A stretch of 64,000 bases of DNA, from the NCBI RefSeq assembly GCF_014174355.1, contig NZ_JABEQF010000002.1, positions 186,001 through 250,000 on the forward strand, in the 5' to 3' direction. A program made the position numbers and the translations under genes. How positions within the stretch are numbered: the first letter of the stretch is position 1; each line of letters starts with the position of its first letter. This document shows, in pieces, positions 3,801-26,908 of this stretch. The notes beneath the pieces were generated by a model. That model was not told where the DNA came from. It saw only the letters and a program-made list of their open reading frames with translations, and ran no database searches. The DNA is from Gluconacetobacter azotocaptans. Its GTDB lineage: Bacteria > Pseudomonadota > Alphaproteobacteria > Acetobacterales > Acetobacteraceae.

Positions 3801-4447
3801 GCGCGGTGACCGACAGCATCCTGGCCTATGGCGGGATGCGCGATGCGTCGTCCGGCAAGAGCTGGGGCGGGGTCGTGCGCAATCGCGCCCATGGGCAGGT
3901 GGAATATGGCGACGAGATGATGTCGTTCTATGCCGGGGGCGGATTTTCCTACCTGCAGGGCAGCCGCACGCAGGATAATGAGGAATACGAGGCCGGAGCC
4001 GGGGGCAGCGTCTCGGTCTTCCATGACGCGGTGCATGAAGTGCATCTGGGCATTGACTTGGACTGGTTCAAATATAACAATAATCAGTACCTGTTCACTT
4101 TGGGTCATGGCGGATATTTCTCGCCGCAATCTTATTTCGCGCTTCTCGTGCCGGTGCGGTACGCGGGGCATCAGGGCAACTGGAACTGGCAGATCGGCGG
4201 ATCGGCGGGTTACCAGTCCTATTCCCAGCGTGCGGCTCAGGCCGGTCTTACGACCGAGGAGGATCCGGCGTATCTGGCGCGCCCGCGGTCGGCGTCAGGT
4301 GTAGTGGGCAGCGTGGATGCGCTGCTGTCCTACCAGGTCACGCCGACGCTGCGCGTGGGCGGCAATTTCATCTACCAGAAAGCCGGGCCGTGGAGCGAGA
4401 CGACGGCCGGCCTGTCCGTCCATTACGATTTCATGGGTATGCCCTGA
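809..4447 (+). CDS. bcsC: Cellulose synthase outer-membrane export subunit BcsC
   Basis: 1212 residues, starting at GTG inside the bcsB stop. BcsC forms the periplasmic TPR scaffold and outer-membrane channel through which the cellulose chain leaves the cell. A signal peptide covers residues 1-28 (hydrophobic GIGLLLLGASPLAL core, cut after ARA). From about residue 45 to 820 the protein is a series of helical tetratricopeptide repeats. Residues ~880-1212 are the BcsC-type beta-barrel: alternating Gly/aromatic strands ending in a terminal barrel strand (LSVHYDFMGMP). Length is near that of other BcsC proteins (about 1150-1300). It is followed directly by bcsD, which defines a type I-like order bcsB-bcsC-bcsD. 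Confidence 0.95.
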   Translation: MTRALAGTGIGLLLLGASPLALSPGARAQVAGPVADQAGAAPNPNTGLVAILVERARYWYDHGQMDHAQQALAQARQIAPGDTRVLALSGEWALHAGDLEGARKVARSLTAIAPTAPETLRLNQVLQVQSVPDASIAQVRQLAREGHTGAAAAGYRKLFPDGPPSQYAVEYYETLAGAIGYREEGRAGLKKLVQADRNNMAAQIAYAQVLTWRAQTRADGLARLQQMAALPDLRPQDRDAIRQAWRAALNWLQEAPESVPYFDAWLALNPGDTDVQTLRTKAQGALSEQAVLERTQGYQALDAGDIEGAGAHFAAALTHAPNDGISLGGLGLVRVRQGRTQEARDLLERAVQADPENASQWRTALNGAKVAQAYSQVRTLQERGHLDEALRLADEMLALDPSQTGLLAMKADIARQQGHQAGAEDLYRQVLRKEPNNQTALQGLYHLLVGSGREQEAAPLMDRLRRLSPAFERQMQASDLVARAERTTNLDEKISLLRQGLEAQGSDPWVRLHLAQALVQAGNRDEARDVMAPLLADDRHPSTAALQASIYFANQNNDMRTVRQLLARLPRAGMTADIRRVADRAQDQELVENAPVDLPEARLYYLQIARKGHDPDGARGQLIANAMIDRHDPAGAALVLQVFLDTAPSPSVSQRLAYAGAFLRMQQPQKVRDLLGSIGEARLDDQQEQIRRDLQTGVAIMTSDRLNAQGRQADAYDVLQPALSASQPSPAARLALARLYQSSSRPGMALSISKAVVAHDPTDLDARLSVVRLALQTDDPDEADNQLREMTEQAPADPRTWLASAAIHRAGGNWVASLDDLSRARALRRQQIGADRAGDGVEGPTDNPFRASAPGVHAAQPGEQDPILAIIDNDVTSTAREFAPFVDVRPVFLGRSGVGSSKLTEGDLAMTGSFAVGLGRVSLGITPTVLASGTDSTADTTTGSAVGVATDAAYAWNWVKADVGSSPLGFRVANVLGGVELSPQVSNRLRLRVTAERRAVTDSILAYGGMRDASSGKSWGGVVRNRAHGQVEYGDEMMSFYAGGGFSYLQGSRTQDNEEYEAGAGGSVSVFHDAVHEVHLGIDLDWFKYNNNQYLFTLGHGGYFSPQSYFALLVPVRYAGHQGNWNWQIGGSAGYQSYSQRAAQAGLTTEEDPAYLARPRSASGVVGSVDALLSYQVTPTLRVGGNFIYQKAGPWSETTAGLSVHYDFMGMP

Positions 4448-12400: not shown

Positions 12401-12745
12401 GTAGCTGGCTTCTCTTTGTCATGCGAAGAGTTTTAAGGATTCATTTCTGGATAATTCATTTTTGTAAGTCAATGCGTCGGCGCAAAGACCAGTCCTGTCC
12501 TGTCCCGCCCATCCGGCCCCCGGACCGCGTCCTGATGCCGGGCATCCATTCACGGGGAATGACCGCACAAAACAGTGAGGTAATGGGGTAACGTTGCCGG
12601 CGATTCATGACGGGTCGCGTCGGCCGGTCCGCATGCGCTTCTGATCGGAAGGCGCCGCGACACGCGATTCACCGGTCGGATGAACGATCGGCGGCAGAGG
12701 CGCGTTGTCTGGCCTCCAGAAGCCGGACAGGTCGGAGAGGGCACG
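12401..12745. other. Intergenic region between chemoreceptor and peroxidase operon
   Basis: 345 bp between divergent genes. The left third is AT-rich compared with the flanks and carries a direct repeat of ATTCATTT at 12439-12446 and 12454-12461; a TTGACT hexamer on the minus strand nearby could be a -35 element for the chemoreceptor. The rest is ordinary GC-rich sequence with GGAGAGGG just before the peroxidase ATG. An open frame upstream of that ATG (from 12680) is judged to be 5' leader. Confidence 0.5.
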
Positions 12746-13864
12746 ATGACAGAGCCGCGAAGCGGGCCGCCAAAAGGAGGCGGAGCGTCCGGACCCGCGT
12801 CCCTGTTCGATCCGGGGACAATGCTGCGCATGGCGGGGATCGGCGTTGTCATGACGGGCGTGGTGGCCGCCTTCGCCTGGAGCGCCGGGTGGCTGTCGCC
12901 GCATCGGCTGACGCAGGCGCGCATGATGGAGGCCCTGGCGGCGGTGGACGGCGTTCATCCCGGCTTCCGGCGCAACCACGCCAAGGGGGTGTGTGTCGCC
13001 GGCTGGTTCGAGAGCCGCGGCCAGGCCATGCCGTTGTCCAAGGCGGCCGTGTTCCGGCCCGGGCGCTCGATGGTGGTCGGGCGCTTCGCGCTGGCGGGCG
13101 GCATGCCGTTCCAGGCCGATGCTCCGGCCAAGGTGCGCAGCATGGCGTTGCGCATCACGCCCCCGGACGGGGCGGAATGGCGCATGGGGATCAACGACAT
13201 TCCGGTCTTCGTCGCGCGGACGGCGCGGGAATTCCGCGACCTGCTGCTGGCCACCCGTCCCGACCCCGCGACGGGCAAGCCCGACCCGGCGCGGGTGGGG
13301 CCGTTCCTGGCCGGACATCCGGAGGTCGCGCGTGCGCTGGCGCTGGTGGGCGCGCGTCCGGTTTCCTCGGGCTTTGGCGACGATACCTATCGCAGTCTCG
13401 ATACCTTCCACTTCATCAATGCGGATGGCGTCTCCACCCCGGTACGCTGGAACATGGTGCCGTTGCAGCAGGTGGTACCCGCCGGCGCCGGGACCGGCCA
13501 GGATTATCTGTTCGACGATCTGCTCACCGCTTTGGGCCGGCATCCGCTGTCCTGGCGTCTGATGGTGACGATCGGCGCACCGTCCGACCCGACGGCCGAT
13601 CCGACCCTGCCCTGGCCCGCCGATCGCCGGCAGGTCGAAGCCGGAACCCTGACCCTGGACGTCGCCGAGAGCGAGGATGGCGGGCCCTGCACCGGCATCA
13701 CCTACGACCCGCTGGTGCTGCCGCCCGGCATCGTGCCATCGGATGACCCGATCCCTGCCGCGCGATCGGCGGCCTATATGCGCTCGTTCACCCTGCGCGC
13801 GGGTGAGGTCAAGCTGCCCAGCGCCATCACCCCCGCAATGATCGCGGCGAAGGACAGGCCATGA
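12746..13864 (+). CDS. Membrane-anchored catalase-family peroxidase
   Basis: 372 residues from ATG 12746, preceded by GGAGAGGG; an ATG at 12680 is in frame but lacks a good ribosome site. A transmembrane helix at ~residues 28-48 (MLRMAGIGVVMTGVVAAFAWSA) is followed by a short catalase-fold heme domain. Visible family features are GFRRNHAKGVC with the distal His, a MGINDIPVF segment at the distal Asn position, and the SAAYMRSF C-terminal segment. This 'catalase-related peroxidase' group (SrpA-like) uses a catalase fold to oxidise organic donors with H2O2. The following cytochrome b561 gene overlaps by 4 bp, suggesting that the two form a periplasm-facing redox unit fed from the quinone pool (inference). 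Confidence 0.85.
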   Translation: MTEPRSGPPKGGGASGPASLFDPGTMLRMAGIGVVMTGVVAAFAWSAGWLSPHRLTQARMMEALAAVDGVHPGFRRNHAKGVCVAGWFESRGQAMPLSKAAVFRPGRSMVVGRFALAGGMPFQADAPAKVRSMALRITPPDGAEWRMGINDIPVFVARTAREFRDLLLATRPDPATGKPDPARVGPFLAGHPEVARALALVGARPVSSGFGDDTYRSLDTFHFINADGVSTPVRWNMVPLQQVVPAGAGTGQDYLFDDLLTALGRHPLSWRLMVTIGAPSDPTADPTLPWPADRRQVEAGTLTLDVAESEDGGPCTGITYDPLVLPPGIVPSDDPIPAARSAAYMRSFTLRAGEVKLPSAITPAMIAAKDRP

Positions 13865-14415
13865 CCCCCGTTGTCCGCTTTTCCGCCCTGGCGCGGGTGC
13901 TGCACTGGCTGATGGCGGCGATGATCCTGGGCATGCTGTTCGTCGGCGTGTTCATGGCCGCAACCGAGGGGCCGGCCTATGCCACGCTGGTTGCCCTGCA
14001 TCGCCCCATGGGCATCGCGATTTTGCTGCTGGCCGGTGTACGGCTGGCCAACCGCCTGCTGGTGCCCCCGCCGCCGCTGCCGGCCGGCATGCCCCTGGTC
14101 CAGAAGATCGCCGCCATCGGGTCGCACATCATCCTCTACGCGCTGATGTTCGCCATGCCGCTGGTCGGCTGGGGGATGCTGTCGGCGGGGGCCTATCCGG
14201 TCGTGCTGTGGGGGCCGGTGCGGCTGCCGCCGATCCTGCCGCACGATCCGGTGCTGTTCGCGGCACTGCGCCACCTGCACAGTTGGCTGGCCTTTACCCT
14301 GTTCGGCGTGATCGTCGTCCATCTGGGCGCGGCGCTGCTGCATGGACTGATCCTGCGCGACGGGGTTTTCCCGGCGATGGCGTCCTGGCGGCGCCGCCGG
14401 CGGGATATCGCGTGA
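13861..14415 (+). CDS. Cytochrome b561 family di-heme membrane protein
   Basis: 184 residues; its ATG overlaps the peroxidase stop (ATGA), so the pair is translationally coupled. Four hydrophobic helices carry the histidines expected for two b-type hemes: LHWLMAAM in helix 1, ALHRPMG in helix 2, GSHIILYALMFAMPLVGWG in helix 3, and LHSWLAFTLFGVIVVHLGAALLHG in helix 4. It ends with a basic cytoplasmic tail. Bacterial b561 proteins pass electrons between quinol and periplasmic partners; the coupled peroxidase is the likely acceptor. Adjacent catalase-type peroxidase and b561 genes are a recurrent arrangement in proteobacteria. Confidence 0.88.
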   Translation: MTPVVRFSALARVLHWLMAAMILGMLFVGVFMAATEGPAYATLVALHRPMGIAILLLAGVRLANRLLVPPPPLPAGMPLVQKIAAIGSHIILYALMFAMPLVGWGMLSAGAYPVVLWGPVRLPPILPHDPVLFAALRHLHSWLAFTLFGVIVVHLGAALLHGLILRDGVFPAMASWRRRRRDIA

Positions 14416-14833: not shown

Positions 14834-15013
14834 GGGCAGGTCGGGACTGTGTTCTGCCGACCATGCCGTTGCGAAATGGGATTGAAAGAAAAATTAAAAC
14901 ATGGTTGCGCGTCGACAAACTGCCCTATGGTGCCCGCATGGCTGGGTGTCGCGTCGCACATGCCTGCCTGACGGGGACGGGGAGGCAAAACGCTGGCGCG
15001 CGGCGGTCGGTCG

Positions 15014-16102
15014 ATGAGGCATGCGGGGCAGGTGGCGGGACCGGCGCCGGGATCGGGGATGTGGCGCTCCATCTGTCTGCTGGTTGGCCTGCTGGCCTTC
15101 TCGTACGCTCCCGGGGCGCGTGCCGTCTCGCTGAACCTGCTGATTTGGGAGTGGGACCTCGATCCCGGCGTGGCAAAGGCCTGGGCCGACACGAGCGGGA
15201 CCGAACTGAACCAGATCATCTTCGACAATGGGGAGCGGCGCGATCTGCTGATTGCCACTGCCGACGCGCCCATCGACATGGCGGTCATCGACAGCGGCCA
15301 TATCGACGCCCTGGGCCAACGCGGGCTGCTGGTCGATCAGGGCAATTATCCCCTGCCCCCCGAGGCGCAGAGCGAGGCGCGGTGGCGGTCGATGTGCGGC
15401 CGGTACGGCGTTCCCTACATCTGGGGCGGCACCGGCATCGTCTATCGTACCGACCGAGTGACCACGCCGCCCGCTTCGTGGGCCGACCTGTTGCGCCCCG
15501 CCCCCGCCCTGGCCGGCCATATCGCGATGACCGACGACGAGGAGGAGATCCTGGCCGCCGCCCTGGGGTTTCTGGGCCGGCCGATGTACACCGGCGATAC
15601 CGAGGACCTGAAGCAGGCGTTCGCGGTCCTGAAGGCGCAGGTTCCGGCCGTGCTGACCTACAGCCTGTCCGTCACCGCGCAGCAGGAGAAAAGCTTTCAC
15701 GACAGGATCTTCATGGGCCTCGCCAATTCGGGCGATCAGCGAACCCTGAACATGACCAGCGACGGGGCGCGGCCATGGCGCTTCGTGACCCCCCGGGACG
15801 GCGCCATGCTGTGGGTCGACTGTCTGGCCGTCCTGAGCCGGTCCCGGCAGCCGGAACTGGCGGAGCGCTTCGTCGCCTTCCTCGCCCGTCCGGACAATGC
15901 CGCCCGGAACGCCATCTTCCTGCAGCAGCCGACAACGAACCTGCATGCCGCCGCCCTGCTGCCGCAGGCAATGCGCGACGACCCGCAGATCTATCCGCCC
16001 GCGGGGATTCCGGTCACGTACCGCAAGCCCGTGCCGACCGACAGCCTGCCGCTCCGTCGCCGGATCCTGAGCGCCCTGGCCGTCATCCATGACGCTCAAT
16101 AA
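15014..16102 (+). CDS. PotD/NspS-like periplasmic polyamine-type binding protein
   Basis: 362 residues from ATG 15014. An ATG at 15059 gives 347 residues starting directly at a signal peptide (WRSICLLVGLLAFSYAPGARA) and may be the true start. The mature protein follows PotD closely: LLIWEWDLDP at the N-terminal Trp site, YGVPYIWGGTGIVYRTD, IAMTDDEEEILAAALGFLG, GAMLWVDCLAV with the Trp and Asp that contact the amine in PotD, and QQPTTNLHAAALLP near the end. No permease or ATPase genes flank it; it overlaps by 14 bp a membrane diguanylate cyclase. That arrangement recalls NspS-MbaA of Vibrio cholerae, in which a PotD-like protein feeds a c-di-GMP enzyme instead of a transporter. Ligand identity is inferred. 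Confidence 0.85.
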   Translation: MRHAGQVAGPAPGSGMWRSICLLVGLLAFSYAPGARAVSLNLLIWEWDLDPGVAKAWADTSGTELNQIIFDNGERRDLLIATADAPIDMAVIDSGHIDALGQRGLLVDQGNYPLPPEAQSEARWRSMCGRYGVPYIWGGTGIVYRTDRVTTPPASWADLLRPAPALAGHIAMTDDEEEILAAALGFLGRPMYTGDTEDLKQAFAVLKAQVPAVLTYSLSVTAQQEKSFHDRIFMGLANSGDQRTLNMTSDGARPWRFVTPRDGAMLWVDCLAVLSRSRQPELAERFVAFLARPDNAARNAIFLQQPTTNLHAAALLPQAMRDDPQIYPPAGIPVTYRKPVPTDSLPLRRRILSALAVIHDAQ

Positions 16103-17657
16103 ACGCGCGTTTTCCCTGATTTTTCCGATCGTCCTGCTGGGATACGTCCTGGCGGGGGGACTGGCCTATTACGGCTACCGGGCGGCGGTGATCGGTCTGC
16201 AGAAGGCGCGGTTGGACCAGGAGGTCTTCCAGCTCAAATCCTCCTACGCCGATTATCTGTCCCTCGGGTCGCGGCTGTTGTACGTAGTGCGCAACAGCAA
16301 CGCCTTCCTGCTGTTCCTCAACGAGACCGACGAGACGTACCGGACGCGCGCGCTGGCCGTCGGCATCCAGGACAGTCTCCAGTCCCTGGACCCGCGGGAC
16401 GATACGTTCGTGTCGTGCAGCATCTTTCAACCCGACGGCCGATTGGTATTCCACTCGGACAATGGCCAGGATCCGTTCAGCACGGCGGGCGAGCGGCAGC
16501 GGGCCTTCGCGCGCGCGGTGATCGCGGACGAGGCGCCGACGCGCTCGGCCCTGATCGTCGAGAATGACGGCCTGTCCTATCTGCTGATGTCCAGCCTGGT
16601 GCAGGCGCGAACCGCCCGCCAGCCCGTCCTGTCGCAGCGAGAGCAGGCGGTGCTGCTGCAGATCGCGATCCGCCCGGTTCATTTCCAGGCTCTCCGGACC
16701 GGGCTGGAGGCCGAGTACAGGACCCGGATCGAAACGTCCGCGACGCCCCTGGCGCCGAACGGCGAATTGTCGGCCGTCGTCCGCCTGGCGCCGGACCTGT
16801 ATGCCCGCCTGACGCCGCCCGGTTCCTACCTGAACGGCCGGTTCCGCAAGATCGCCATCATCTCCGCCGCCATGAGCCTGAGCCTGAGCGTGGCGTCGAT
16901 CGGGGTGCTGATGGTGCTGGTGCGCCGTTTCGTCACCGGCCCGGTCGAAGAACTGGATCGGCAGGTGAGCGGCATCATGACGCAGCAGCGCGAGACCATC
17001 GACGTGCCCGGCACTGGCGAAGTCGGGCGGTTGGCGGCGAATGTCAGGCGCCTGCACTGGGAACTGGACCAGGCGCTGAAGCGGACACAGCGCCTCTATG
17101 AGACGGATCCGGTGACCGGGATCGGCAACCGGATCTATTTCAATGAAATGATGGAGCGCTTTTTCCACGAGGAAAAGACCACCGGGCAGCCGGTCACCAT
17201 GCTGTTCATCGACCTCGATAATTTCAAGATGGTCAACGACGAGTACGGTCATCGTGCCGGCGACGCGCTGCTGGAGGCCGTGGCCCATGCGCTGGTCCTG
17301 GCCCTGAACGAGACCGCCCGCGCCTGCGATGCGGCGCCCGGCATCGCTGCCCGGTTCGCGGGGGACGAATTCGCTGTCCTGGTGCAGGCGGGGCCGCGAA
17401 CCGCCTATGTGCAGGATCTGGTCCGCTCCATCCTCGCGCTGTTCCAGGGGGGATTCAGCGTCGACGGGAGCCGCTATCCGGTCACCGCCAGCATCGGCGT
17501 GGCCTCGGCGCCCGAAGACGCCACCACGACGATGCTGCTGCTGTCCTGCGCGGACCATGCCATGTACCACGCCAAGGGCAGCGGCCGGAACACCGTCGCC
17601 TTCCATGGCGACCTGCCCGCCTTCGCCTGGACCGGAAAGTCTCCCCGGAACCGGTAG
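16089..17657 (+). CDS. Membrane diguanylate cyclase (periplasmic sensor-HAMP-GGDEF)
   Basis: 522 residues, beginning 14 bp inside the end of the binding-protein gene. TM1 at ~7-29, a ~225-residue periplasmic region without an obvious own pocket, TM2 at ~254-278, a HAMP linker (~279-330), then a GGDEF domain from ~338. The catalytic motif is AGDEF (residues 424-428), a form found in active cyclases, with the supporting DPVTGIGNR, FIDLDNFKMVND and GHRAGDALL segments. An RACD tetrad (411-414) lies nine rather than the usual five residues before the motif, so the product-inhibition site may be altered. No EAL domain follows. The product would activate c-di-GMP-dependent targets, which include cellulose synthase BcsA. 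Confidence 0.9.
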   Translation: MTLNKRAFSLIFPIVLLGYVLAGGLAYYGYRAAVIGLQKARLDQEVFQLKSSYADYLSLGSRLLYVVRNSNAFLLFLNETDETYRTRALAVGIQDSLQSLDPRDDTFVSCSIFQPDGRLVFHSDNGQDPFSTAGERQRAFARAVIADEAPTRSALIVENDGLSYLLMSSLVQARTARQPVLSQREQAVLLQIAIRPVHFQALRTGLEAEYRTRIETSATPLAPNGELSAVVRLAPDLYARLTPPGSYLNGRFRKIAIISAAMSLSLSVASIGVLMVLVRRFVTGPVEELDRQVSGIMTQQRETIDVPGTGEVGRLAANVRRLHWELDQALKRTQRLYETDPVTGIGNRIYFNEMMERFFHEEKTTGQPVTMLFIDLDNFKMVNDEYGHRAGDALLEAVAHALVLALNETARACDAAPGIAARFAGDEFAVLVQAGPRTAYVQDLVRSILALFQGGFSVDGSRYPVTASIGVASAPEDATTTMLLLSCADHAMYHAKGSGRNTVAFHGDLPAFAWTGKSPRNR

Positions 17658-17659
17658 GT

Positions 17660-18139
17660 TCAGGCGGGAAGGGTCCGGACCAGGAGAGCGACCACGCCTT
17701 CCAGCAGGGATTGATCGGCGGGCGAGAAGCGGTTTTTGACCGGGCTGTCGATATCCAGCACCCCCACCAGGGTTTCCCCCGCCACGATGGGCACCACGAT
17801 TTCGGACTCGGACGCCGCGTCGCAGGCAATATGGCCCGGGAACAGATGCACGTCGGGAACCACGATCGTGCGGCGCTGCGCCGCGGCGGTGCCGCAGACG
17901 CCCCGGCCCATGGCGATGCGGGTGCAGGCGATCCGCCCCTGGAACGGACCCAGCACCAGTTGCCCGTCCCGCAGGAAATAGAAGCCGGCCCAGTTGAGGG
18001 TGGGCAGCGCCTCGAACAGCAGGGCCGCGATGTTGGCGGTGTTGGCGATCAGGTCCGCCTCGTCCCGCACGACCGCCTCGACGGCGGACAGCAGGTCGGC
18101 GGGCGTGACCCGGTCGGGCGAGGCGGGAGGGTGGCTCAC
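17660..18139 (-). CDS. msrC: Free methionine-(R)-sulfoxide reductase (GAF-domain fRMsr)
   Basis: 159 residues from GTG 18139, preceded by GAAAGGAAC on the minus strand. It is a single GAF domain with all three cysteines of the fRMsr active site: Cys72 (GRIACTRIAMG), Cys82 (GRGVCGTAA) and Cys106 (FPGHIACDAASESEIVVPI), matching the E. coli enzyme in spacing. It reduces free L-methionine-R-sulfoxide with thioredoxin. The open frame continues far upstream, but that part is antisense to the peptide transporter. It is convergent with the diguanylate cyclase (2 bp gap) and follows the transporter gene in the same direction; import of peptides and repair of oxidised methionine would fit together. Confidence 0.92.
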   Translation of the reverse strand: MSHPPASPDRVTPADLLSAVEAVVRDEADLIANTANIAALLFEALPTLNWAGFYFLRDGQLVLGPFQGRIACTRIAMGRGVCGTAAAQRRTIVVPDVHLFPGHIACDAASESEIVVPIVAGETLVGVLDIDSPVKNRFSPADQSLLEGVVALLVRTLPA

Positions 18140-18186
18140 GGGCGGGTTCCTTTCGGGCGCAGGGGGGAAGACGGGCGACACGGGGT

Positions 18187-19695
18187 TCAGGCGCCGGGAA
18201 GGGGATGCGCCACCAGGTGCTGGCGGTCCCATTTCCGCGCCAGCGGCAGCAGCAGCGCGAACAGCACGGTGATGCCTCCCGCCGCCTCGGCCAGGCGCAG
18301 GAACAGGCCGGCATACAACCCCGCCCCCGCCATGGCGCCGGACGCGGCGGCGTTTCCGCCCGCCGCCGCCAGGTTGGCCATCATGCTGCCGACATACATG
18401 GCGACACCTACCGCCAGGAAATACGACCCCATCATGAAGGCGCTGACGGGCGCGGGCACATAACGGGCGATGACCGCCAGCCCCAGCCCGCCGACCAGCA
18501 ATTCGCCCAGCGACAGCGTGCCGTACGCCAGGACCATCACCCAGGGCGTCACCCGCCCCGCGCCGCCGGCCAGCGCCGCCAGCCACCAGATGATGAAGGC
18601 CACGGTCACCAGGCCGAACCCCACGGTGAATTTTTGCGCGATCGACAGGTCGCGCCCGGACTGCGCCAGGCGGTGATAGAGCAAGGCCAGCACCGGGCTG
18701 GCCAGCATGATCCAGATGGGGTTGAGGGCCTGGAACTGCCCGGCGGACATGCTGAACAGCGTCACGCCGCCCAGCGTGAACGCGCCGCGTACGGCGCGCA
18801 GGGCGAACAGGGTCAGCGACGTCGCCATCTGCTGGTAGAAGACGAAATAGGACATGCCCTGGAGGGATAGCAGGTACGCCAGGCGCAGGCCCGGCCGGTC
18901 GGTGGGCGCGGCGCGGAGATACATCATCGTCCAGCACAACAGGACAAGTGCGGCGGCCGCCCAGACGGCGTCCCGTGCCAGGGGGCCATGCTGCAACAGC
19001 AGGCTCAACCCCCCGATCGCGGCGGCGATCCCCAGCAGGACCGCCCCGTACCGCGCCATCGGAACCGGCCTGAAATCGGGCACCGAGCCGACGGACGCCA
19101 GATGCGCCCGGCGCAACGCGTAGAAGCACAGGCCCAGGAAGACCCCGGCCGCGCACGCCCCGAACGCCGCCGCGGGCCCGAACCGGTCCTGCAACCATGG
19201 CGTCAGAAGCGTCGAGACCGTGGAGCCGACATTGACCGCCATGTAGTACAGCGTGAATGCCGCATCCAGTTCGGCGTCGTCGCCGTGATAGATCCGGCGG
19301 ACCAGATTGGCGGCATTGGGCTTGAACAGCCCGTTCGCGGTCGCGATGATCGCCATGGCGAAGGTCAGCAACTCGTGCCGCGTCGTGGCCAGCGCCAGCA
19401 GCGCGTAGCCGCCGGTCAGCGTCATCGCGCCCAGCAGCATCGCGCGGCGCGAGCCCAGGACCCTGTCGCCCAGCCATCCGCCCAGCGCGGGCAGGGCGTA
19501 GGTCATCGCGGCGAACGCCCCCATCAGCAGGTTGGCCTGGGTGTCCTCGACGCCGAGATGCTGCACCATGAACAGCAGCAGGACGGCCTGCATGCCGTAA
19601 TAGCCGAACCGTTCCCACAATTCGATGGCCAGGACGACCGCGAAGGACGCGCGGCGGGAGGTGTGTCGCGACGACGGGGACGTTGAAAGAGCCAT
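18187..19695 (-). CDS. POT/PTR family proton-dependent oligopeptide transporter
   Basis: 502 residues with about 14 predicted membrane helices. The POT signature ExxERFxYYG is present as ELWERFGYYG in helix 1 (residues ~25-34), where the glutamates and arginine couple proton and peptide binding. GDRVLGSRRAMLLGAMTLTGGY gives the MFS motif A, and FALRAVRGAFTLGG-type segments follow. POT proteins import di- and tripeptides; no accessory domain is seen. It sits 47 bp upstream of the methionine sulfoxide reductase gene on the same strand. Confidence 0.92.
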   Translation of the reverse strand: MALSTSPSSRHTSRRASFAVVLAIELWERFGYYGMQAVLLLFMVQHLGVEDTQANLLMGAFAAMTYALPALGGWLGDRVLGSRRAMLLGAMTLTGGYALLALATTRHELLTFAMAIIATANGLFKPNAANLVRRIYHGDDAELDAAFTLYYMAVNVGSTVSTLLTPWLQDRFGPAAAFGACAAGVFLGLCFYALRRAHLASVGSVPDFRPVPMARYGAVLLGIAAAIGGLSLLLQHGPLARDAVWAAAALVLLCWTMMYLRAAPTDRPGLRLAYLLSLQGMSYFVFYQQMATSLTLFALRAVRGAFTLGGVTLFSMSAGQFQALNPIWIMLASPVLALLYHRLAQSGRDLSIAQKFTVGFGLVTVAFIIWWLAALAGGAGRVTPWVMVLAYGTLSLGELLVGGLGLAVIARYVPAPVSAFMMGSYFLAVGVAMYVGSMMANLAAAGGNAAASGAMAGAGLYAGLFLRLAEAAGGITVLFALLLPLARKWDRQHLVAHPLPGA

Positions 19696-19780
19696 GAAGA
19701 TCCTCAGGACAGGGGTCCCGCATGCCTAATGGGCGCGGGGTGTCTGTGCAATCTTCGGTGCGGGATGCCGGGCTCGTCGG

Positions 19781-20746
19781 TCAGATGCGGCTATCGGGAC
19801 GGATGCCCGTACGGGGCGAGAGATGGAGGATATAGGTCGGGTTTCCCATCGGGCCGCCCGGGCCGGTGGCGACGGTGCGGACCCTATGGCTCAGTTCGAT
19901 TTCGTCGTGATGTTCCAGCGCGACCGAAAAGACATGCTGCCGCCACGACAGCGCGGCCTCGAACTGGGACGCCTCCCGCCCGTAGCGCAGGCTCATGCCG
20001 TCCTGCCGGATGATCTGGCCGCCGGCCAGGGCCAGCATCGCGATACCGGCGGCCACCGTCGCGGCATGGCCGATATGGCGGAACAGATGGTCGTGCAGGC
20101 GCGGCAGGATGTGGCGCATCAGCACCGACGACAGGATTGCCGCCATCGCCACCGCCAGCCCGACGGTCATCGCCCGGGGCGTTAACAGCCCGAAGCCGGC
20201 GTACAGGCCCAGCTTCATCAGGTGCAGCAGGATCTCGTTCGCGGCCCGGGTCGCGACGATTTCCTCCTTGCGCAGGCCCAGGCGGCGATAGAACCCGTTG
20301 AAGACCAGCCCCACCGCCCCGGTGAAGCCGGACAGGAACCCGGCCGCCGCCCCCGTTGCGACCAGTCGGGCCAGCCGCATGGGCTGGTGGGAAACCGGTG
20401 CCGGCGCGCGGAACAGAAGCGGCAGGTTGCCCATCAGGAACAGGCCCAGCAGCACATCCAGATAGGCCGGATTCATGCGGCTCAGCCCCCAGGCGCCCAG
20501 CGCTGCGAAGGGCAGGGCGGCGGGGGCGAAACGCCAGACCACCGCCCAGCGGATGGAGCGACGGAACGTGGCGATGCGGGCCAGCGAACTGGCCGCCGTG
20601 CCGATCGACAGGGCGGCGGGTACCTGCGCCCCCGGCACGACCAGCCCCAGCAGCGGCATCAGGATCAGTCCCGCGCCGCCGCCCGATACGGTACTGAGGC
20701 CGAAGGCGAAAACCGAAGCGGCAAGGATCAGGCACCAGATGAGCAT
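19781..20746 (-). CDS. TauE/SafE-family membrane permease with a C-terminal soluble extension
   Basis: 321 residues. The first ~250 are a TauE/SafE (DUF81) permease with eight or so helices: it begins LILAASVFAFGLSTVSGGGAGLILMPLL, the family's Gly-rich first repeat, and the second repeat shows GFLSGFTGAVGLVFNGFYRR. Such proteins export sulfite, sulfoacetate or other small anions. The last ~65 residues, after helix ALAGGQIIRQD, form a non-hydrophobic tail (ASQFEAALSWRQHVFSVALE, HRVRTVATGPGG) not usual in the family. It is divergent from the two-component system at 20973, with a 226-bp gap. Confidence 0.82.
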   Translation of the reverse strand: MLIWCLILAASVFAFGLSTVSGGGAGLILMPLLGLVVPGAQVPAALSIGTAASSLARIATFRRSIRWAVVWRFAPAALPFAALGAWGLSRMNPAYLDVLLGLFLMGNLPLLFRAPAPVSHQPMRLARLVATGAAAGFLSGFTGAVGLVFNGFYRRLGLRKEEIVATRAANEILLHLMKLGLYAGFGLLTPRAMTVGLAVAMAAILSSVLMRHILPRLHDHLFRHIGHAATVAAGIAMLALAGGQIIRQDGMSLRYGREASQFEAALSWRQHVFSVALEHHDEIELSHRVRTVATGPGGPMGNPTYILHLSPRTGIRPDSRI

Positions 20747-20852
20747 GCATCACTTCCGTAGCCGGGCGCATGTCGCGGGGGCGACGGTGGACCGTTGACG
20801 CCATGATGGGGCCCGGTCCTGCGGAAAGCAGGTTAAAACCTCCCAATCTGCC

Positions 20853-20881
20853 GCACCCGCCCTTTCGTGGGGGGCGGGTGC
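20853..20881. promoter_or_regulatory. Inverted repeat GCACCCGCC-N11-GGCGGGTGC in divergent intergenic region
   Basis: Nine-base perfect arms at 20853-20861 and 20873-20881 separated by 11 bases, in the 226-bp gap between the TauE-like gene and the response regulator gene. There is no T-tract on either side and both neighbours point outward, so a terminator is unlikely; an operator or leader hairpin is possible. Confidence 0.4.
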
Positions 20882-20972
20882 CTTCTATCGTCGGCGTCAC
20901 TGTCATGGGCCATGGGCCGTCGGGCCGGCCCCTAATGGAAGGGAGAACCCGGATCGTGTCGGGTGTGAGATC

Positions 20973-21689
20973 ATGACGGGCATCGGTGCAACGACCCGCC
21001 TGCTGCTGGTCGAGGACGATCCCGATACCGCCGCCTATGTCCGCGACGGCCTGGCGCATGAGGGGATCGCCGTCACGATCGCCGACAACGGGACCGATGG
21101 CCTGTCCATGGCCCTCGGCCGGGAATGGGATGTGATCGTGCTGGACCGGATGCTGCCGGGCATGGACGGCCTGTCCATCCTGACCCGCCTGCGCGAAGCC
21201 GGCAGCCGCGCTCCGATCATCTTCCTGACGACGATGGATGGGGTCAGCAGTCGCGTCGGCGGATTGCGCGGCGGGGCCGACGATTATCTGGTCAAGCCGT
21301 TCGCCGTGCGGGAACTGGCGGCGCGCATCGCCGTCCTGCTGCGCCGGGTCGGCCCGATGCGGCATGTGACCGCCCTGCGGGTGGCGGGGATCGTGCTCGA
21401 TCTTCTGAGGCGGGAGGTCACCCGCGATGGCGAGAAGATCCTGCTTCAACCGCAGGAAGTAAAAATTCTCGAATATTTCATGCGAAATCCCGAGACGATC
21501 CTTTCGCGCCAGATGTTGCTGCATTATGCGTGGAACGTGGATTTCCCCGTCCGCACGAATATCGTCGAAACCCATATCAGCCGCCTGCGCGACAAGCTGG
21601 GGCATGACGGCCGGCAATTGATCCAGACCATCCGGGGCGCGGGCTATGTCATGAGGGACAGCGATCTTGGCAGCATTCCCACCGGCTAG
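20973..21689 (+). CDS. OmpR-family response regulator
   Basis: 238 residues. The receiver domain (1-120) has the acidic pocket Asp15/Asp16, phospho-acceptor Asp58 in VIVLDRMLPGMDG, and Lys108 in YLVKPF. The C-terminal winged helix (residues ~135-230) has the family pattern LQPQEVKILEYFMRNPETILSRQMLLHYAWN and THISRLRDKLGHDGRQLIQTIRGAGYVM. The sensor kinase gene overlaps its end. The divergent TauE-like permease is a plausible target (inference). Confidence 0.93.
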   Translation: MTGIGATTRLLLVEDDPDTAAYVRDGLAHEGIAVTIADNGTDGLSMALGREWDVIVLDRMLPGMDGLSILTRLREAGSRAPIIFLTTMDGVSSRVGGLRGGADDYLVKPFAVRELAARIAVLLRRVGPMRHVTALRVAGIVLDLLRREVTRDGEKILLQPQEVKILEYFMRNPETILSRQMLLHYAWNVDFPVRTNIVETHISRLRDKLGHDGRQLIQTIRGAGYVMRDSDLGSIPTG

Positions 21690-23112
21690 GGGGCGGGCCG
21701 CCGCGATCGCCAGGGTCGTTTCCAGTCTCTCGTTCCGGATCGTCATTCTGTTCGCGGGTTTCCTGATGCTGTCGGGCATGCTGGTCATCCTGCTGTCGGG
21801 CCTGCACAGTCAGCGCTCGCTGCAAGGCCAGATCCGCCACGCCGTCACCGCCGAACGGGCGGAGGTCCTGTCGGCGGCCGGGAGGCAGGATATCGGGCAC
21901 ATGCTGCCCGTGATCCGGAACCTGGTCCGGAACGAACCCGCTTTCTTCTATCTGCTGCAAGATGCCTCCGGCGCGATCCTGGCCGGCAACATGCTGCATC
22001 TTCGTCCGGTGTCCGGCGGCCGCTGGCTGTCCTGGGCGCACCGGCTGCCCTTTGGGGCGAACGACATCCCGGTCTATGGCGAAGGGGTCGTGCTGGCGGA
22101 TGGCGGCTATTTCTTCGTGGGCATCGATGCCTCCCCGCTGCGCCGGCTGCGGCACGATATCCGGGCGATCATGATCTGGAGCCTGTGTGGCTTCTGCGTC
22201 CTGGGCATCGGCGGCGGCCTGATCCTGAGCGCCGTGATCCTGCGGCGGATCGAAACGATCAGCGTGACCGCCCGCCGGATCATGAGCGGCGATATCTCGC
22301 AGCGGATTCCCTATCAGGGGACGGACGACGAGTTCGACCATCTCGCCCACAGCCTGAATGCGATGCTTGAACAGAACGAAAGGCTGATCGCCAGCCTGCG
22401 GCAGGTGTCCAACGATATCGCGCACGACATGCGCCGTCCGCTGTCGCACCTGCGCCAGCGGCTGGAGACCGCGTCCCTTGCCGAGCATACGTCCGACGGC
22501 TTTCGCGCGGCGATCGACGATGCGGTCGTCGAGCTCGATCTGGCGCTGGAGATCTTTTCCTCGCTTCTGCGCCTGTCACGGATCGAGGGCGGGATCGCGA
22601 CCGACACGATGGTGCCGGTCGCCCTCGACACCCTGACGGCGCAGGTCGCCGAACTCTATCGCCCGGCGGCCGAGGACCGGCATCAGGCCCTGATCGTCGG
22701 GCCGGTGTCCGGGACGGTCGACGGCGATCCGGTGCTGCTGATGCAGATGCTGTCCAACCTGGTGGAAAATGCCATCAACCACACGCCAAACGGCAGCCGG
22801 ATCACCATTGACGGCGGGGTGGATGGCGACCGGGTGACGCTGGTCGTGGCCGATAACGGGGCCGGCATTCCCGCCGACAGCCGCGAACGGGTCTTCCACC
22901 GTTTCGTACGCCTCGACCGCAGCCGCTCGGTGCCCGGCAGCGGCCTGGGGTTGAGCCTGGTCCGCGCGATCGCGCGCCTGCATGGCGGAACGATCACCCT
23001 GTCGGACAACCGGCCCGGTTTGCGCTGTACGGTCGTTCTGCCGCATATCGCCTTATCCGAGACCCTGCCCGGGGGGATGCGGAACCCGCCAGGGAACAGC
23101 CAGGAAGCATGA
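21667..23112 (+). CDS. Membrane sensor histidine kinase
   Basis: 481 residues from TTG 21667, overlapping the response regulator by 23 bp; a later start is possible but no better-placed ATG precedes the first helix. TM1 ~24-45, a ~120-residue periplasmic sensor, TM2 ~166-190, HAMP (~191-245). The dimerisation domain has the phospho-acceptor His253 in NDIAHDMRRPLSHLRQRLE. The ATPase domain carries the N box (QMLSNLVENAINHTPNGS), G1 (VVADNGAGIP) and G2 (SRSVPGSGLGLSLVRAIARLHGG). It pairs with the upstream regulator; the stimulus is unknown. The next gene, an SDR, starts two bases after the stop. Confidence 0.93.
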   Translation: MAAFPPARGRAAAIARVVSSLSFRIVILFAGFLMLSGMLVILLSGLHSQRSLQGQIRHAVTAERAEVLSAAGRQDIGHMLPVIRNLVRNEPAFFYLLQDASGAILAGNMLHLRPVSGGRWLSWAHRLPFGANDIPVYGEGVVLADGGYFFVGIDASPLRRLRHDIRAIMIWSLCGFCVLGIGGGLILSAVILRRIETISVTARRIMSGDISQRIPYQGTDDEFDHLAHSLNAMLEQNERLIASLRQVSNDIAHDMRRPLSHLRQRLETASLAEHTSDGFRAAIDDAVVELDLALEIFSSLLRLSRIEGGIATDTMVPVALDTLTAQVAELYRPAAEDRHQALIVGPVSGTVDGDPVLLMQMLSNLVENAINHTPNGSRITIDGGVDGDRVTLVVADNGAGIPADSRERVFHRFVRLDRSRSVPGSGLGLSLVRAIARLHGGTITLSDNRPGLRCTVVLPHIALSETLPGGMRNPPGNSQEA

Positions 23113-23113
23113 T

Positions 23114-23953
23114 GTGAGCACCTCTGAACGACCGGAATCGCGCCCTCTGGCTGTCGTGACCGGGGCGACCGGTGGAATCGGGCGCGAAATCGTCGCCCTG
23201 CTGGTGGGGGCCGGCTATCGCGTGACGATCCTGGCGCGCGGGGAAGCCACATCGCCGGGTGTTTCACCCGGCGGCCCCGCGTGGGGCGCGCATGTCGCGA
23301 CCGTAGCTTGCGATCTGACCCGGATGGAGTCCATCGCCCAGGCGGCGGCCGACATCGTGGCGGCCGGCGAGCCGGTCATGCTGCTGATTCATTGCGCGGG
23401 GGTCATCAGCCCGGGCCAGGGTGATGGCCTGTGCGGCGACGGCGTGGCGCGGCAGATCGCCGTGAACCTGACGGCCCCGATCCTGCTGACCTCCCGCCTG
23501 CTGGAAAGCATGCCGCGCGGCGGTCATGTCGTGTTCGTCAATTCCATGGCCGGCGCGATGCCCCTGCAAGGCAGCGGGGTCTATGCCGCGACCAAGTTCG
23601 GGCTGCGCGGCTATGCCCTGTCGCTGGCGCTGGATTTGCGCCCGCGCGGCATCCGCGTGTCGTCCGTCTTCCCCGGGGCGGTCGACACGCCGATGCTGCG
23701 GCGGGAAATGGCGGAAGGCGGGTCCGTCCTCAATTTCGTCAGCCAGCCTGCCGCCCCTGCCGATGTGGCGCGGCGCATCGTCGCGGTCTGCCGCCGGCCC
23801 CGGCGCGAGGTGTTCCTGCCCCCGCTGGACGGCCTGTTCGCCAATCTCTGCCTGCTGCTGCCCGGCGTGCTGCGTCTGTCCCTGCCGCTGCTGACTTTCA
23901 GCGGCCGCCGGGGCTATCGCCGCTTTCAGAAGCGCTGCGGACCTGTGAAATAG
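23114..23953 (+). CDS. Short-chain dehydrogenase/reductase
   Basis: 279 residues from GTG 23114, with AGGAAG just upstream and the kinase stop immediately before it. A Rossmann NAD(P)-binding motif TGATGGIGRE is near the N-terminus (residues ~15-24). The catalytic tetrad is visible as NS-x-AG (VNSMAGAMPL) and YAATKFG (Tyr and Lys). PGAVDTPML follows in the usual cofactor-loop position. The last ~50 residues contain a hydrophobic segment (LFANLCLLLPGVLRLSLPLL) that could attach it to the membrane, as in SDRs acting on lipids. The substrate is not recognised. Coupling to a two-component operon is unusual for an SDR. Confidence 0.85.
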   Translation: MSTSERPESRPLAVVTGATGGIGREIVALLVGAGYRVTILARGEATSPGVSPGGPAWGAHVATVACDLTRMESIAQAAADIVAAGEPVMLLIHCAGVISPGQGDGLCGDGVARQIAVNLTAPILLTSRLLESMPRGGHVVFVNSMAGAMPLQGSGVYAATKFGLRGYALSLALDLRPRGIRVSSVFPGAVDTPMLRREMAEGGSVLNFVSQPAAPADVARRIVAVCRRPRREVFLPPLDGLFANLCLLLPGVLRLSLPLLTFSGRRGYRRFQKRCGPVK

Positions 23954-24019
23954 GGTGGCCGAAGGCCCTGGCGCTGCCGGTTCGGCTTCGGTCTGGAAGC
24001 AAACAATCACGCAGATGGA

Positions 24020-24319
24020 TCAGGTCGGACGGGACTCGCCAACATCATACACGCGCAAGTTGCGATCTCGGATACCGAGGGATGGCCAGGCCGCCCGCCA
24101 TTCCTTGATGTGCCGCGACGCAAAGTGCCGATCAAGTGCAGACTGATCCGTCCATAACTCTTTGACGTGGATCAGCCCCGGATCGAAAACGTCCTCGGCG
24201 TAGCCATATTCAACGCAACCTTCTTCGGCCCGACTTGCTTCCGCCATAAGCCTCATAACGGGACGGGCGGCCACCAGATTTTGTGCGGGAAGACGAACTG
24301 TTCCGAGGATAAGCAGCAT
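24020..24319 (-). CDS. ABM-fold monooxygenase / quinol monooxygenase-like protein
   Basis: 99 residues from ATG 24319 (LLILGTVRLPAQNLVAARPVM...). The frame extends to 24475, but the extra N-terminus has no family resemblance and no ribosome site, so the internal ATG was chosen; its own ribosome site is weak (GAGGG ~20 bp upstream). The ferredoxin-like dimeric alpha-beta barrel signature is seen in EEGCVEYGYAEDVFDPGLIHVKELWTDQSALDRHFAS. Family members oxidise phenols or quinols without metal or flavin cofactor. The gene stands alone between oppositely oriented neighbours in sequence of visibly lower GC content than its surroundings, possibly acquired DNA. Confidence 0.78.
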   Translation of the reverse strand: MLLILGTVRLPAQNLVAARPVMRLMAEASRAEEGCVEYGYAEDVFDPGLIHVKELWTDQSALDRHFASRHIKEWRAAWPSLGIRDRNLRVYDVGESRPT

Positions 24320-24630
24320 AGGCCAAGCATAGAGGCCGCCCTCATAAATGGAAGGTGGCTGTCGGCTTTCAGGAAATGACCAGCACGTGCCGAGGCTTGG
24401 ATTGGGCGACTGATGGTGCACTTGGGTCGTAACTCGCCGTATTTGCAAAGCGTATAATCGCCCGCCAAAGGGCATAGCCCTTTGGAAAATAAGAACTTCA
24501 TAAAACGAATGGGATGCCAGAGCCGAGGCCCTTGCCGGGTTCGGGCGCGGCCCGACCTTTTGCCCTGGCGCGGGTTTCCGCTTTCCTTCCGCTTATTTGT
24601 TCTCTATATGTTCCAATCCCGGAGGGGGAA
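24320..24630. other. Intergenic region with inverted repeat and SOS box
   Basis: 311 bp between the divergent monooxygenase-like gene and imuA. It holds a perfect inverted repeat CCAAAGGGC-ATA-GCCCTTTGG (24465-24485) and the LexA site at 24599-24613. Base composition is more AT-rich than the neighbouring genes up to about 24515. No further coding frame is convincing. Confidence 0.6.
24599..24613. promoter_or_regulatory. LexA-binding SOS box, GTTC-N7-GTTC
   Basis: The sequence GTTCTCTATATGTTC is an exact match to the alphaproteobacterial direct-repeat LexA operator GTTC-N7-GTTC. It lies 17 bp before the imuA start codon, between the probable promoter and GGAGGGGGA, as expected for SOS repression of the imuA-imuB-dnaE2 cassette. 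Confidence 0.9.
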
Positions 24631-25449
24631 ATGACGAGAACGGACCGAACCGACATGCTGGCCCGTCTGCGCGGGCAGATCGCCCGGATGGAGCGGCATA
24701 CTTCCCGCCTTGCGCCCGACGCCGGGTGGGACGCCGGTCCGATACCCTGGGGGCTGGCGGTGCCCGAGATCGACCGGCATCTGCAAGGCGGCCTGCCGCG
24801 CGGCGCGGCGCATGAGGTCATCGGCCAGGGTGGGGACATGGCGCTGGCGGTCCTGCCGGCGCGGTTCGTCGCCCATGTCCTGGGGGTGGGCGGCGGCCCC
24901 GTGGTCTGGATCGGGGCCGGCCTGTTCGACCTGCATGCGGACGGGCTGGTCCGCGCCGGAGTCGATCCCGGTCGTCTGCTGTGCGTCACGGCGGGGCGGG
25001 ACGACGTCCTGGCGGTCTGCGAGGATTCGGTGCGGGCCTGCGGCGTTGCGGCAGTGGTGGCGGAACTGGAGGGCGCGCTGTCGCTGACGGCGTCGCGCCG
25101 CCTGCAACTGGCGGCCGAGGGCTCGGGCGCCACCTGTTTCCTGATCCGCCGGTCGCGGCGGCCGAACGATCGCACCCTGTTCCAGCCGACCGCCAGCGCC
25201 ACCCGCTGGCGCATCGCCGCCCTGCCGTCGCCCGCCCCCATCGCGGGGTCTCCCGGAATGCGGGGCGTAGGCGCGGCGCGTTGGTCGATGGATCTGCTGC
25301 GGTATCGGGGCGGGCGGCCCGGCTCATGGATCGTGGAGGTGGGGGATGCGCCGGATCGTCTCGTTATGGCTGCCGTTCCTGCCGGTCGAGCGGCTGCGGC
25401 GACGGCATGCCCTGTCGCCGGACCGGCCGCTTGTCACGCGGTCGCATGA
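24631..25449 (+). CDS. imuA: SOS mutasome protein ImuA
   Basis: 272 residues from ATG 24631 with a strong GGAGGGGGA site; the longer frame upstream crosses the LexA box and is rejected. ImuA is a RecA/SulA-like protein found with ImuB and DnaE2, needed for damage-induced mutagenesis. Family segments seen are RLRGQIARMERH, LPRGAAHEVIGQG, a predicted P-loop-region replacement (GGGPVVWIG), and RRLQLAAEGSGATCFLIRR. The last ~35 residues are encoded in sequence that also encodes the start of imuB: the two frames overlap by 104 bp. The SOS box upstream indicates LexA control. Confidence 0.92.
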   Translation: MTRTDRTDMLARLRGQIARMERHTSRLAPDAGWDAGPIPWGLAVPEIDRHLQGGLPRGAAHEVIGQGGDMALAVLPARFVAHVLGVGGGPVVWIGAGLFDLHADGLVRAGVDPGRLLCVTAGRDDVLAVCEDSVRACGVAAVVAELEGALSLTASRRLQLAAEGSGATCFLIRRSRRPNDRTLFQPTASATRWRIAALPSPAPIAGSPGMRGVGAARWSMDLLRYRGGRPGSWIVEVGDAPDRLVMAAVPAGRAAAATACPVAGPAACHAVA

Positions 25450-26872
25450 CGGGCGCCGGCAGGTGATCGCCGCCGCCGACCCGGCGGCCCGCGCCCAGGG
25501 GGTCGTGCCCGGCCAGCCCCTGGCGCAGGCGCAGGCGCTGGTCCCCGACCTGCAGGTGCTGGAGGCGCAACCGGATCGGGATGCCGCCGATCTGGCGCGG
25601 CTGGCCGGCAGGTGCCTGTGGATGTCGCCGCTGACCGCGCCCGACGGGGTGGACGGGATCTGGATCGACGCGTCCGGCTGCGCGCACCTGCATGGGGGCG
25701 AGCATGCGATGCTGGGCCGGTTGCTGGACGACCTGGGGCGACTGGGCCTGTCCGGCCGGGTGGCGATCGCCGACACGCCGGGGGCGGCCCATGCCCTGGC
25801 CCGGCACGGTCGGTCGCGCCGGACGGTGCTGCCGGCGGGCGCACCGGAGACGATGTTCGATTCCCTGCCGGTCGAAGCCCTGCGGATTGCGGGCGACACG
25901 GCCGACATGTTGCACCGGCTGGGCCTGGGGCGGATCGGCGCGGTGCGCGCCGCACCCCGCGCGCCGCTGGCCCGCCGGTTCGGGCCGTTGCTGCTGACGC
26001 GGCTGGACCAGATGCTGGGGCGGGTGGCGGAACCGATCCGGCCGGTCCTGGCGCCGGACATCGTCCAGGCCCGGCGCGGCTTTGTCGAACCGATTTCCAC
26101 GCCCGACGCCTTTCGCATGGTGATCGACGCCTTGGTCGCCGAGGTCTGTGCGGCGCTGCATCGGCGGGGCGAGGGCGCGCGGCGGCTGGATCTGGTCTTC
26201 GAACGGGTGGACGGGACGACGCGGTCGGTCCGGGTGGGCACGGCGCGGGCGGTGCACAATCCGGCGCATCTGGGCCGCCTGCTGGCGGAACGGATCGAAA
26301 GCGTGGAACCGGGTTTCGGGGTCGAGGCGATGCGACTGGCCGTCACGGCGGCCGAACGATGCGGGCCGGTCCAGGATGACGGCGCCCGGATGGGGAGCGG
26401 TCACAGAGGGGACGATGCGGACCTGTCGGTGCTGGTCGATCGTCTGGTCAACCGCCTGGGGCCGGAGCGGGTCTTTCGCCTGACCCCCGTGGCGACCCAT
26501 GTGCCCGAACGCCGCCAGCGCCGCATGCCGGCCGACCGTGCCGGCGCGGGCGGGATCTGGTCGGCCGACTGGCCGCGTCCCATCCGCCTGCTGCCGGCGC
26601 CGGAACCGGTGCGGGTGACGGCCCTGCTGCCCGATCATCCGCCGCATGCCTTCACCTGGCGCCGGTCGCGGCACGAGGTCGCGCGGGCCGACGGGCCGGA
26701 ACGGATCCTGGGCGAGTGGTGGCGGCCCGCAACCGACGCCGACAACGACCGGGTGCGCGAGTACTGGATCGTCGAGGACCGCGATGGCCGGCGCTTCTGG
26801 CTGTTCCGCCGGGGAGACGGGCAGCATGCCTGGTCGGGCGATCAGGGCTGGTTCCTGCATGGCTTTTTCTGA
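25346..26872 (+). CDS. imuB: Y-family polymerase-like mutasome protein ImuB
   Basis: 508 residues from ATG 25346, directly after TGGAGGTGGGGG, which fixes the start inside imuA. The N-terminus (RRIVSLWLPFLPVERLRRR) follows the Y-family fold but lacks the catalytic carboxylates of active enzymes such as DinB (no MDAFFASVE), the hallmark of ImuB as a non-catalytic adaptor linking the clamp, ImuA and DnaE2. A WIDASGCAHLHGG segment and the C-terminal WSGDQGWFLHGFF are characteristic of the family. dnaE2 starts 37 bp downstream. Confidence 0.93.
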   Translation: MRRIVSLWLPFLPVERLRRRHALSPDRPLVTRSHDGRRQVIAAADPAARAQGVVPGQPLAQAQALVPDLQVLEAQPDRDAADLARLAGRCLWMSPLTAPDGVDGIWIDASGCAHLHGGEHAMLGRLLDDLGRLGLSGRVAIADTPGAAHALARHGRSRRTVLPAGAPETMFDSLPVEALRIAGDTADMLHRLGLGRIGAVRAAPRAPLARRFGPLLLTRLDQMLGRVAEPIRPVLAPDIVQARRGFVEPISTPDAFRMVIDALVAEVCAALHRRGEGARRLDLVFERVDGTTRSVRVGTARAVHNPAHLGRLLAERIESVEPGFGVEAMRLAVTAAERCGPVQDDGARMGSGHRGDDADLSVLVDRLVNRLGPERVFRLTPVATHVPERRQRRMPADRAGAGGIWSADWPRPIRLLPAPEPVRVTALLPDHPPHAFTWRRSRHEVARADGPERILGEWWRPATDADNDRVREYWIVEDRDGRRFWLFRRGDGQHAWSGDQGWFLHGFF

Positions 26873-26908
26873 AAGCCCGTTTGAGCACGCCTGCTACGGG
26901 GACCGGCC

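Follow-up and report, generated by a model that had tools for sequence, protein, structure and literature searches.

The closest described relatives of the locus treated here, two overlapping genes in a 64,000-nucleotide (nt) stretch of Gluconacetobacter azotocaptans (contig NZ_JABEQF010000002.1, positions 186,001 to 250,000; referred to below as the window), are the NspS-MbaA signaling pairs, in which a receptor of cyclic di-GMP (c-di-GMP) signaling has a known extracellular signal and models of the system turn on its capacity for both synthesis and degradation of c-di-GMP (PMC8967002). In Vibrio cholerae, MbaA carries an SGDEF signature and both activities are reported for it; according to the same source, the current view is that NspS carrying norspermidine associates with MbaA and favors its cyclase, MbaA otherwise degrading c-di-GMP. 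The same pair type is described from Sinorhizobium meliloti, likewise a member of the Alphaproteobacteria, whose MbaA has the canonical EAL motif (PMC9993111), whereas the Gluconacetobacter receptor has none. An earlier note on this DNA had supposed that such a pair was undescribed for acetic acid bacteria; in fact, the survey in PMC9993111 already lists an NspS-MbaA pair with a 13-bp overlap in Gluconacetobacter diazotrophicus PA1 5. The genus appears nowhere else in the main text of that source, and the entry is silent on the missing EAL domain. Our literature search, from which subscription journals were mostly absent, found no report of the missing domain, nor, save for that survey entry, any polyamine-type input of this kind to c-di-GMP among acetic acid bacteria associated with plants. 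The pair in Gluconacetobacter is, in short, already in print, and we did not find its EAL loss mentioned.

We propose, with a probability of about 0.7, that the window pair is of the NspS-MbaA signaling type, with a receptor from which the EAL phosphodiesterase domain has been lost, this being the explanation that best accounts for the sequence comparisons as a whole. With the V. cholerae system it shares a PotD-like sensor, an overlapping gene for a two-transmembrane (TM) receptor of the same family, and a degenerate (S/A)GDEF cyclase; unlike the V. cholerae receptor, which joins GGDEF to EAL and is reported to act in both directions, it has no EAL domain, and its sensor differs at pocket positions 131 and 233 (V. 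cholerae sequences lie outside our alignment rows). With PotD and PotF of polyamine importers, the window binding protein shares a sequence family and several amine-contact residues, but it has no adjoining permease and its nearest relatives found are NspS proteins.

Homology of the pair to NspS-MbaA

The earlier note described a PotD-like binding protein overlapping a GGDEF membrane protein, the latter a stand-alone cyclase with an AGDEF signature and without EAL, and this description holds (Table 1). Pfam matches the binding protein to SBP_bac_8 (6.1e-23) and the receptor to GGDEF (3.5e-35) and gives no EAL match in the receptor at E <= 1, while the best NCBIfam match of the binding protein is PotD (4.4e-25, 88.3 bits, far under the 582-bit cut-off). 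Hydropathy of the receptor peaks at about residues 6 to 29 and 254 to 286, with ~225 residues between, as for two TM helices. Of the label "transmembrane HAMP-GGDEF," the two TM segments and the GGDEF domain thus stand, and the HAMP part is a matter of homology: in the window receptor Pfam makes no HAMP call, and 6 of 36 aligned relatives match HAMP at E <= 0.01.

The parallel with NspS and MbaA drawn in that note proved to be real homology, as profile and contig searches both return pairs with a GGDEF-EAL MbaA. At E <= 1e-8, a profile of receptor residues 1 to 280 (A3) found 8 of 398 genomes of the phylum, namely, our own and seven others, whose receptors are MbaA-like, measure 774 to 792 amino acids (aa), and show an EAL domain in the alignment. 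In six of these seven, the binding-protein gene overlaps the receptor gene by 14 or 17 nt, and in the seventh (G370) a similar candidate open reading frame (ORF) ends 242 bp upstream of it. Over our own class, the same profile found our own genome alone of the 385 drawn, and a further profile, A8, found 50 of 394 genomes of the Rhizobium family; such counts vary with the genera drawn and the profile used. Moreover, when named genomes were scanned with the alignment of the binding protein and one peptide pattern, the best 80 of 123 relatives comprised 10 Gluconacetobacter loci and 70 from elsewhere (Shinella, Rhizobium, Mycoplana, Xaviernesmea, Stutzerimonas, Pseudomonas, and Vibrio, among others), which with the window make an alignment of 81 rows, 11 from Gluconacetobacter and 70 from elsewhere. 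These 10 Gluconacetobacter loci appear to come largely from the set of 14 genomes considered below, and the counts are not independent. Among these best 80 of 123, an EAL motif is present in the receptor at 70 of the 70 loci outside the genus versus none of the 10 within it. Receptor length follows suit, with 768 to 798 aa in the former and 522 to 551 aa (longest start) or 522 to 545 aa (ATG inside the overlap) in Gluconacetobacter. A gene for MbaA lies downstream of the binding-protein gene at all 70 loci, a count that the single peptide pattern may tilt toward NspS. As a separate observation, Vibrio maerlii (L123 5977-8111) has two binding-protein-like ORFs in tandem before mbaA, the second overlapping mbaA by 17 nt.

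The GGDEF domain of the window receptor is 43 to 48% identical to that of Rhizobiales MbaA and 29 to 37% identical to three other Gluconacetobacter GGDEF domains (G305, G000, and G123), and replacement of the original domain by one from another cyclase is not supported by this comparison, in which those three represent the genus.

Loss of the EAL domain and its history

No EAL remnant was detected at E <= 10 in positions 15001 to 25000 of the window or in L168, the locus of a second EAL-less pair, and the best EAL match in seven other Gluconacetobacter stretches had an E value of 0.022. The gene that follows the cyclase is convergent and encodes a GAF domain; its open frame ends at 17660, so that its 3' end lies 2 bp past the cyclase stop, and therefore no EAL leftover stands between them. 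An EAL domain encoded by a separate neighboring gene was not seen either, the nearest lying 12.6 kb off (G301) among six genomes searched, four of them pair bearing.

Two trees, one of the receptor and one of the sensor, took in 53 of the 81 rows. In both, Gluconacetobacter forms a single clade that sits among EAL-bearing pairs on a long stem (1.08 and 1.14 changes per column), which would place the EAL loss on this stem. The receptor has no settled position in one tree and stands weakly beside Pseudomonas (84/76) in another, and the sensor tree puts the clade beside Rhizobiales (93); since these placements disagree, we claim no donor lineage.

In the Rhizobium-family draw (the family being taken as Rhizobiaceae), 49 of the 50 matches lie in open frames of 796 to 1046 residues and one, from G1126, in a frame of 540. 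The EAL motif is present in the three of those 49 that were read (G1264, G1065, and G1046) and in G610. The G1126 locus (L168 2983-5551) encodes a 512-aa receptor without EAL and a 347-aa binding protein, with a 14-nt overlap as in Gluconacetobacter. The tree joins G1126 with the EAL-bearing G1264 (100/99), and its grouping with Gluconacetobacter is rejected (p-AU 0.006, to be taken with caution as long branches meet there); on these grounds, the loss in G1126 would be a separate one, and EAL was probably lost at least twice.

Cyclase domain and proposed mechanism

All 11 Gluconacetobacter rows retain the residues expected of an active cyclase, namely, Asp375, Asp377, Lys380, Asn383, Asp384, His388, Asp392, Arg422, those of GDEF, and Lys496; the signature is AGDEF in 3 and SGDEF in 8 of these rows, and an RxxD site occurs in none of the 81 rows. 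We propose a model, built by homology on the V. cholerae system, in which the binding protein would close on an extracellular amine and dock on the periplasmic domain of the receptor (residues 29 to 254), and this docking would turn on the cytoplasmic GGDEF domain and c-di-GMP synthesis. The unbound receptor, which in V. cholerae degrades c-di-GMP, would here only be idle, as EAL is gone. The pair would then act as a one-way ON switch in place of a push-pull switch; by analogy, and because the degrading EAL half is lost, the Gluconacetobacter pair can probably only switch c-di-GMP on. Its output is probably general c-di-GMP control (biofilm, exopolysaccharide, and motility) and not a dedicated cellulose switch.

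Predicted sensor pocket

Eight norspermidine contacts are predicted for V. cholerae NspS, quoted in PMC9993111 from Young et al. 2021. With V. cholerae NspS itself outside the rows, they were mapped by spacing, which fits the NspS of Vibrio anguillarum and Vibrio tubiashii exactly; in Vibrio furnissii and Shinella granuli, the spacing is off by one or two residues with the same residue kinds in the columns, except for N at 93 and L at 136 in S. granuli. The corresponding window residues are 45, 74, 93, 136, 238, 241, 267, and 269. In V. anguillarum and V. tubiashii, this spacing sets NspS D70 against window E74 and not D71.

Of the eight predicted contacts, six (W45, E74, D93, D241, W267, and D269) are either retained or replaced conservatively, and the equivalents of Tyr233 and Phe131 are changed. 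W45, D241, W267, and D269 are identical in 81 of 81 rows; D93 is found in 11 of 11 Gluconacetobacter rows versus 33 of the 70 others, and position 74 is D or E in all 11 (D in 8). At position 238 (Tyr233), the 11 Gluconacetobacter rows have N, G, or A, and the 70 others all have Tyr; at position 136 (Phe131), they have I (3 rows) or S (8 rows), compared with L, V, or F in 70 of 70 others. As this otherwise invariant tyrosine has been lost, the ligand, or the affinity for it, probably differs from the norspermidine case. A coupling of EAL loss to loss of the pocket tyrosine is ruled out by the G1126 pair, in which EAL is lost and Tyr kept. G. diazotrophicus encodes SpeD and SpeE of the spermidine pathway (PMC10385936), and a self-made amine is therefore a possible signal. 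Only tentatively would we go further and suggest that a push-pull receptor has been reduced at least twice to a one-way amine-gated cyclase, the Gluconacetobacter pocket having been re-tuned to a different amine, perhaps from plants or fermenting fruit.

Conservation of the pair in Gluconacetobacter

Both genes are present in 12 of 14 Gluconacetobacter genomes (thresholds, E <= 1e-5 for the binding protein and E <= 1e-30 for the cyclase) and both are absent from two, G304, an assembly of about 1310 contigs at 87% completeness, and G305, which is a single contig. The comparative search that the earlier note had called for finds the binding-protein gene with the cyclase gene in each of the 12 carriers of the genus, with an identical 14-nt overlap and no internal stops in any of them. 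Across six species pairs each, the ratio of nonsynonymous to synonymous change (dN/dS) is 0.16 to 0.32 for the cyclase gene and 0.13 to 0.29 for the binding-protein gene, and it is 0.14 to 0.25 for the GGDEF part in three species pairs split by part; both genes are under purifying selection. Across 299 Acetobacteraceae genomes, 7 have the cyclase at E <= 1e-40, each of them a Gluconacetobacter, and 143 have the binding protein at E <= 1e-10, with at most 33% identity outside the genus among the matches listed; these distant PotD-like matches of the family quite possibly belong to importers.

Of the seven relatives compared, only G. johannae and G. tumulisoli share the upstream neighbors of the window pair, and the downstream GAF gene is present in six. 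At 12680-14415 of the window, genes for a catalase-family protein and a cytochrome b561 overlap by 4 nt and precede a DUF202 gene, an arrangement that adjoins the pair in these two species as well.

Relation to cellulose synthesis

Cellulose synthase is a target of c-di-GMP, and the earlier note had placed cellulose genes about 10 kb from the pair and suggested a specific cellulose switch. The location is correct: the window opens with the end of bcsB (48-812) and bcsC (809-4447), 10.6 kb upstream of the pair. A dedicated switch, in which the cyclase feeds BcsA of the nearby bcs cluster, nevertheless appears decidedly unlikely, and the distribution of CelA, the pair, and bcsC rules out a cellulose-specific role as a general explanation. 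Proximity favors it in the window and in G123 and G303, where bcsC also lies on the contig of the pair within 9 to 17 kb; these two and our own genome (G000) are the only such cases, and in the remaining six carriers with bcsC the gene is on another contig. CelA (TIGR03030) is over its cut-off in 10 of 14 Gluconacetobacter genomes, compared with 12 of 14 for the pair: 9 of the 12 carriers have it, three (G215, G247, and G299) do not, and G305 has CelA without the pair. A second CelA gene of our own genome also lies about 68 kb downstream of the pair. The c-di-GMP from the pair may reach cellulose synthase where that enzyme is present, and the pair is not tied to it.

Two further observations concern these genes. 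The two CelA genes of our own genome are on the contig of the window (G000:C2:182187-184196 and 271518-273557), the first just before the window, and in G303 (G303:C2:91987-95757) the bcsC match falls in two pieces within one long open frame.

Alternative explanations

Several results weigh against the proposal of an EAL-less NspS-MbaA pair. The GGDEF domain of P. oryzihabitans-type MbaA scores 84 to 95 bits in most rows, compared with 93 bits for the best other Gluconacetobacter GGDEF domain; as these rows score no better, it is from the Rhizobiales and Stutzerimonas rows, together with the full-length alignment, that the window GGDEF domain is judged to be MbaA's own. The changes at the equivalents of Tyr233 and Phe131 could reflect a ligand other than a polyamine or a loss of ligand control, and the EAL-less pair of G1126 still has Tyr at position 238. 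The sensing of a non-polyamine, be it another amine or an amino-acid-like compound, would agree with both pocket changes, found in 11 of 11 rows, and with the long Gluconacetobacter stem in both trees. We regard it as somewhat unlikely given that the predicted contacts W45, D93, D241, W267, and D269 are the same in all 11 rows, position 93 being one that varies among EAL-type rows. The sign of the response could also be reversed, the empty binding protein activating the cyclase and the ligand releasing it, so that an amine would lower c-di-GMP. PMC8967002 describes a strain with raised output even without norspermidine, explained there by apo-NspS that binds MbaA and triggers its cyclase, and states that spermidine shifts NspS toward the open form; with the changed pocket, a common polyamine could then act solely as a brake. 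Such an inversion is unlikely, as ligand-closed NspS is the main activator in V. cholerae and no sequence feature favors it.

Were the binding protein to serve an importer encoded elsewhere, the cyclase would be a mere neighbor. PotA-like ATPases do occur in the genus; one in our own genome is barely over the TIGR01187 cut-off (357.7 versus 355.6 bits), and the five other ORFs scanned beside it, a part of those around it, comprise one permease, one oxidoreductase, one hydrolase, and two without a Pfam match. On contig 6 of our own genome, a permease and a PotA-like ATPase accompany an SBP_bac_8 protein of their own, different from that of the window. ABC importers of the broad class thus exist in this genome, and none was seen using a close relative of the window binding protein, which even at E <= 10 has itself as its single match there. 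In each of the 12 carriers, the protein likewise has one match at E <= 1e-5, always adjoining the cyclase gene and overlapping it in the same way. The earlier note saw no transporter genes beside the binding protein, and indeed the 20 neighboring window ORFs scanned include no binding-protein-dependent permease; they do include an ABC-domain ATPase gene, an MFS transporter, and a POT transporter. Service to a distant importer is on this evidence highly improbable. Hardly credible is the notion of a decaying remnant with a truncated, functionless receptor: the lost EAL domain and the absence of both genes from 2 of 14 genomes, one of them the fragmented G304, would fit it, and the low dN/dS values, those of the GGDEF part included, argue against it together with the intact frames of all 12 carriers and the catalytic residues kept in every Gluconacetobacter row.

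Features of the window

The coordinates of the pair and its parts are given in Table 1. Farther downstream (25346-30070), an impB/mucB/samB-family polymerase gene is followed by a DNA polymerase III alpha gene, an arrangement that resembles a mutagenesis cassette.

Table 1. Positions in the window of the NspS-type and MbaA-type genes and their parts
Feature	Position	Strand	Basis
NspS-type periplasmic solute-binding protein, 362 aa	15014..16102	+	ORF list, Pfam, NCBIfam; alignment with 80 named relatives
Putative N-terminal secretion signal, residues 1-37, cut presumed after ARA	15014..15124	+	read from letters
Codon of Ile136, place of NspS Phe131	15419..15421	+	alignment
Codon of Asn238, place of V. 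cholerae NspS Tyr233 (predicted amine contact)	15725..15727	+	alignment
Overlap of both genes, 14 nt	16089..16102	+	ORF list; same in 12/12 pairs of genus
EAL-less MbaA, membrane diguanylate cyclase (predicted activity), 522 aa	16089..17657	+	ORFs, Pfam, alignment
TM segment 1, about residues 7-28	16107..16172	+	hydropathy
MbaA periplasmic domain, about residues 29-254, where the binding protein presumably docks	16173..16850	+	hydropathy; profile A3
TM segment 2, about residues 255-280	16851..16928	+	hydropathy
HAMP-like linker (by homology)	16929..17102	+	
GGDEF domain, residues 339-501; catalytic residues intact, RxxD site absent	17103..17591	+	Pfam, alignment
AGDEF signature, residues 424-428	17358..17372	+	sequence

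Significance of the pair

Our study points to a natural form of the NspS-MbaA system that would have the cyclase arm only, which lets one ask what the degrading arm contributes. For plant-associated acetic acid bacteria, the pair offers a candidate polyamine-type input to c-di-GMP that can be put to the test.

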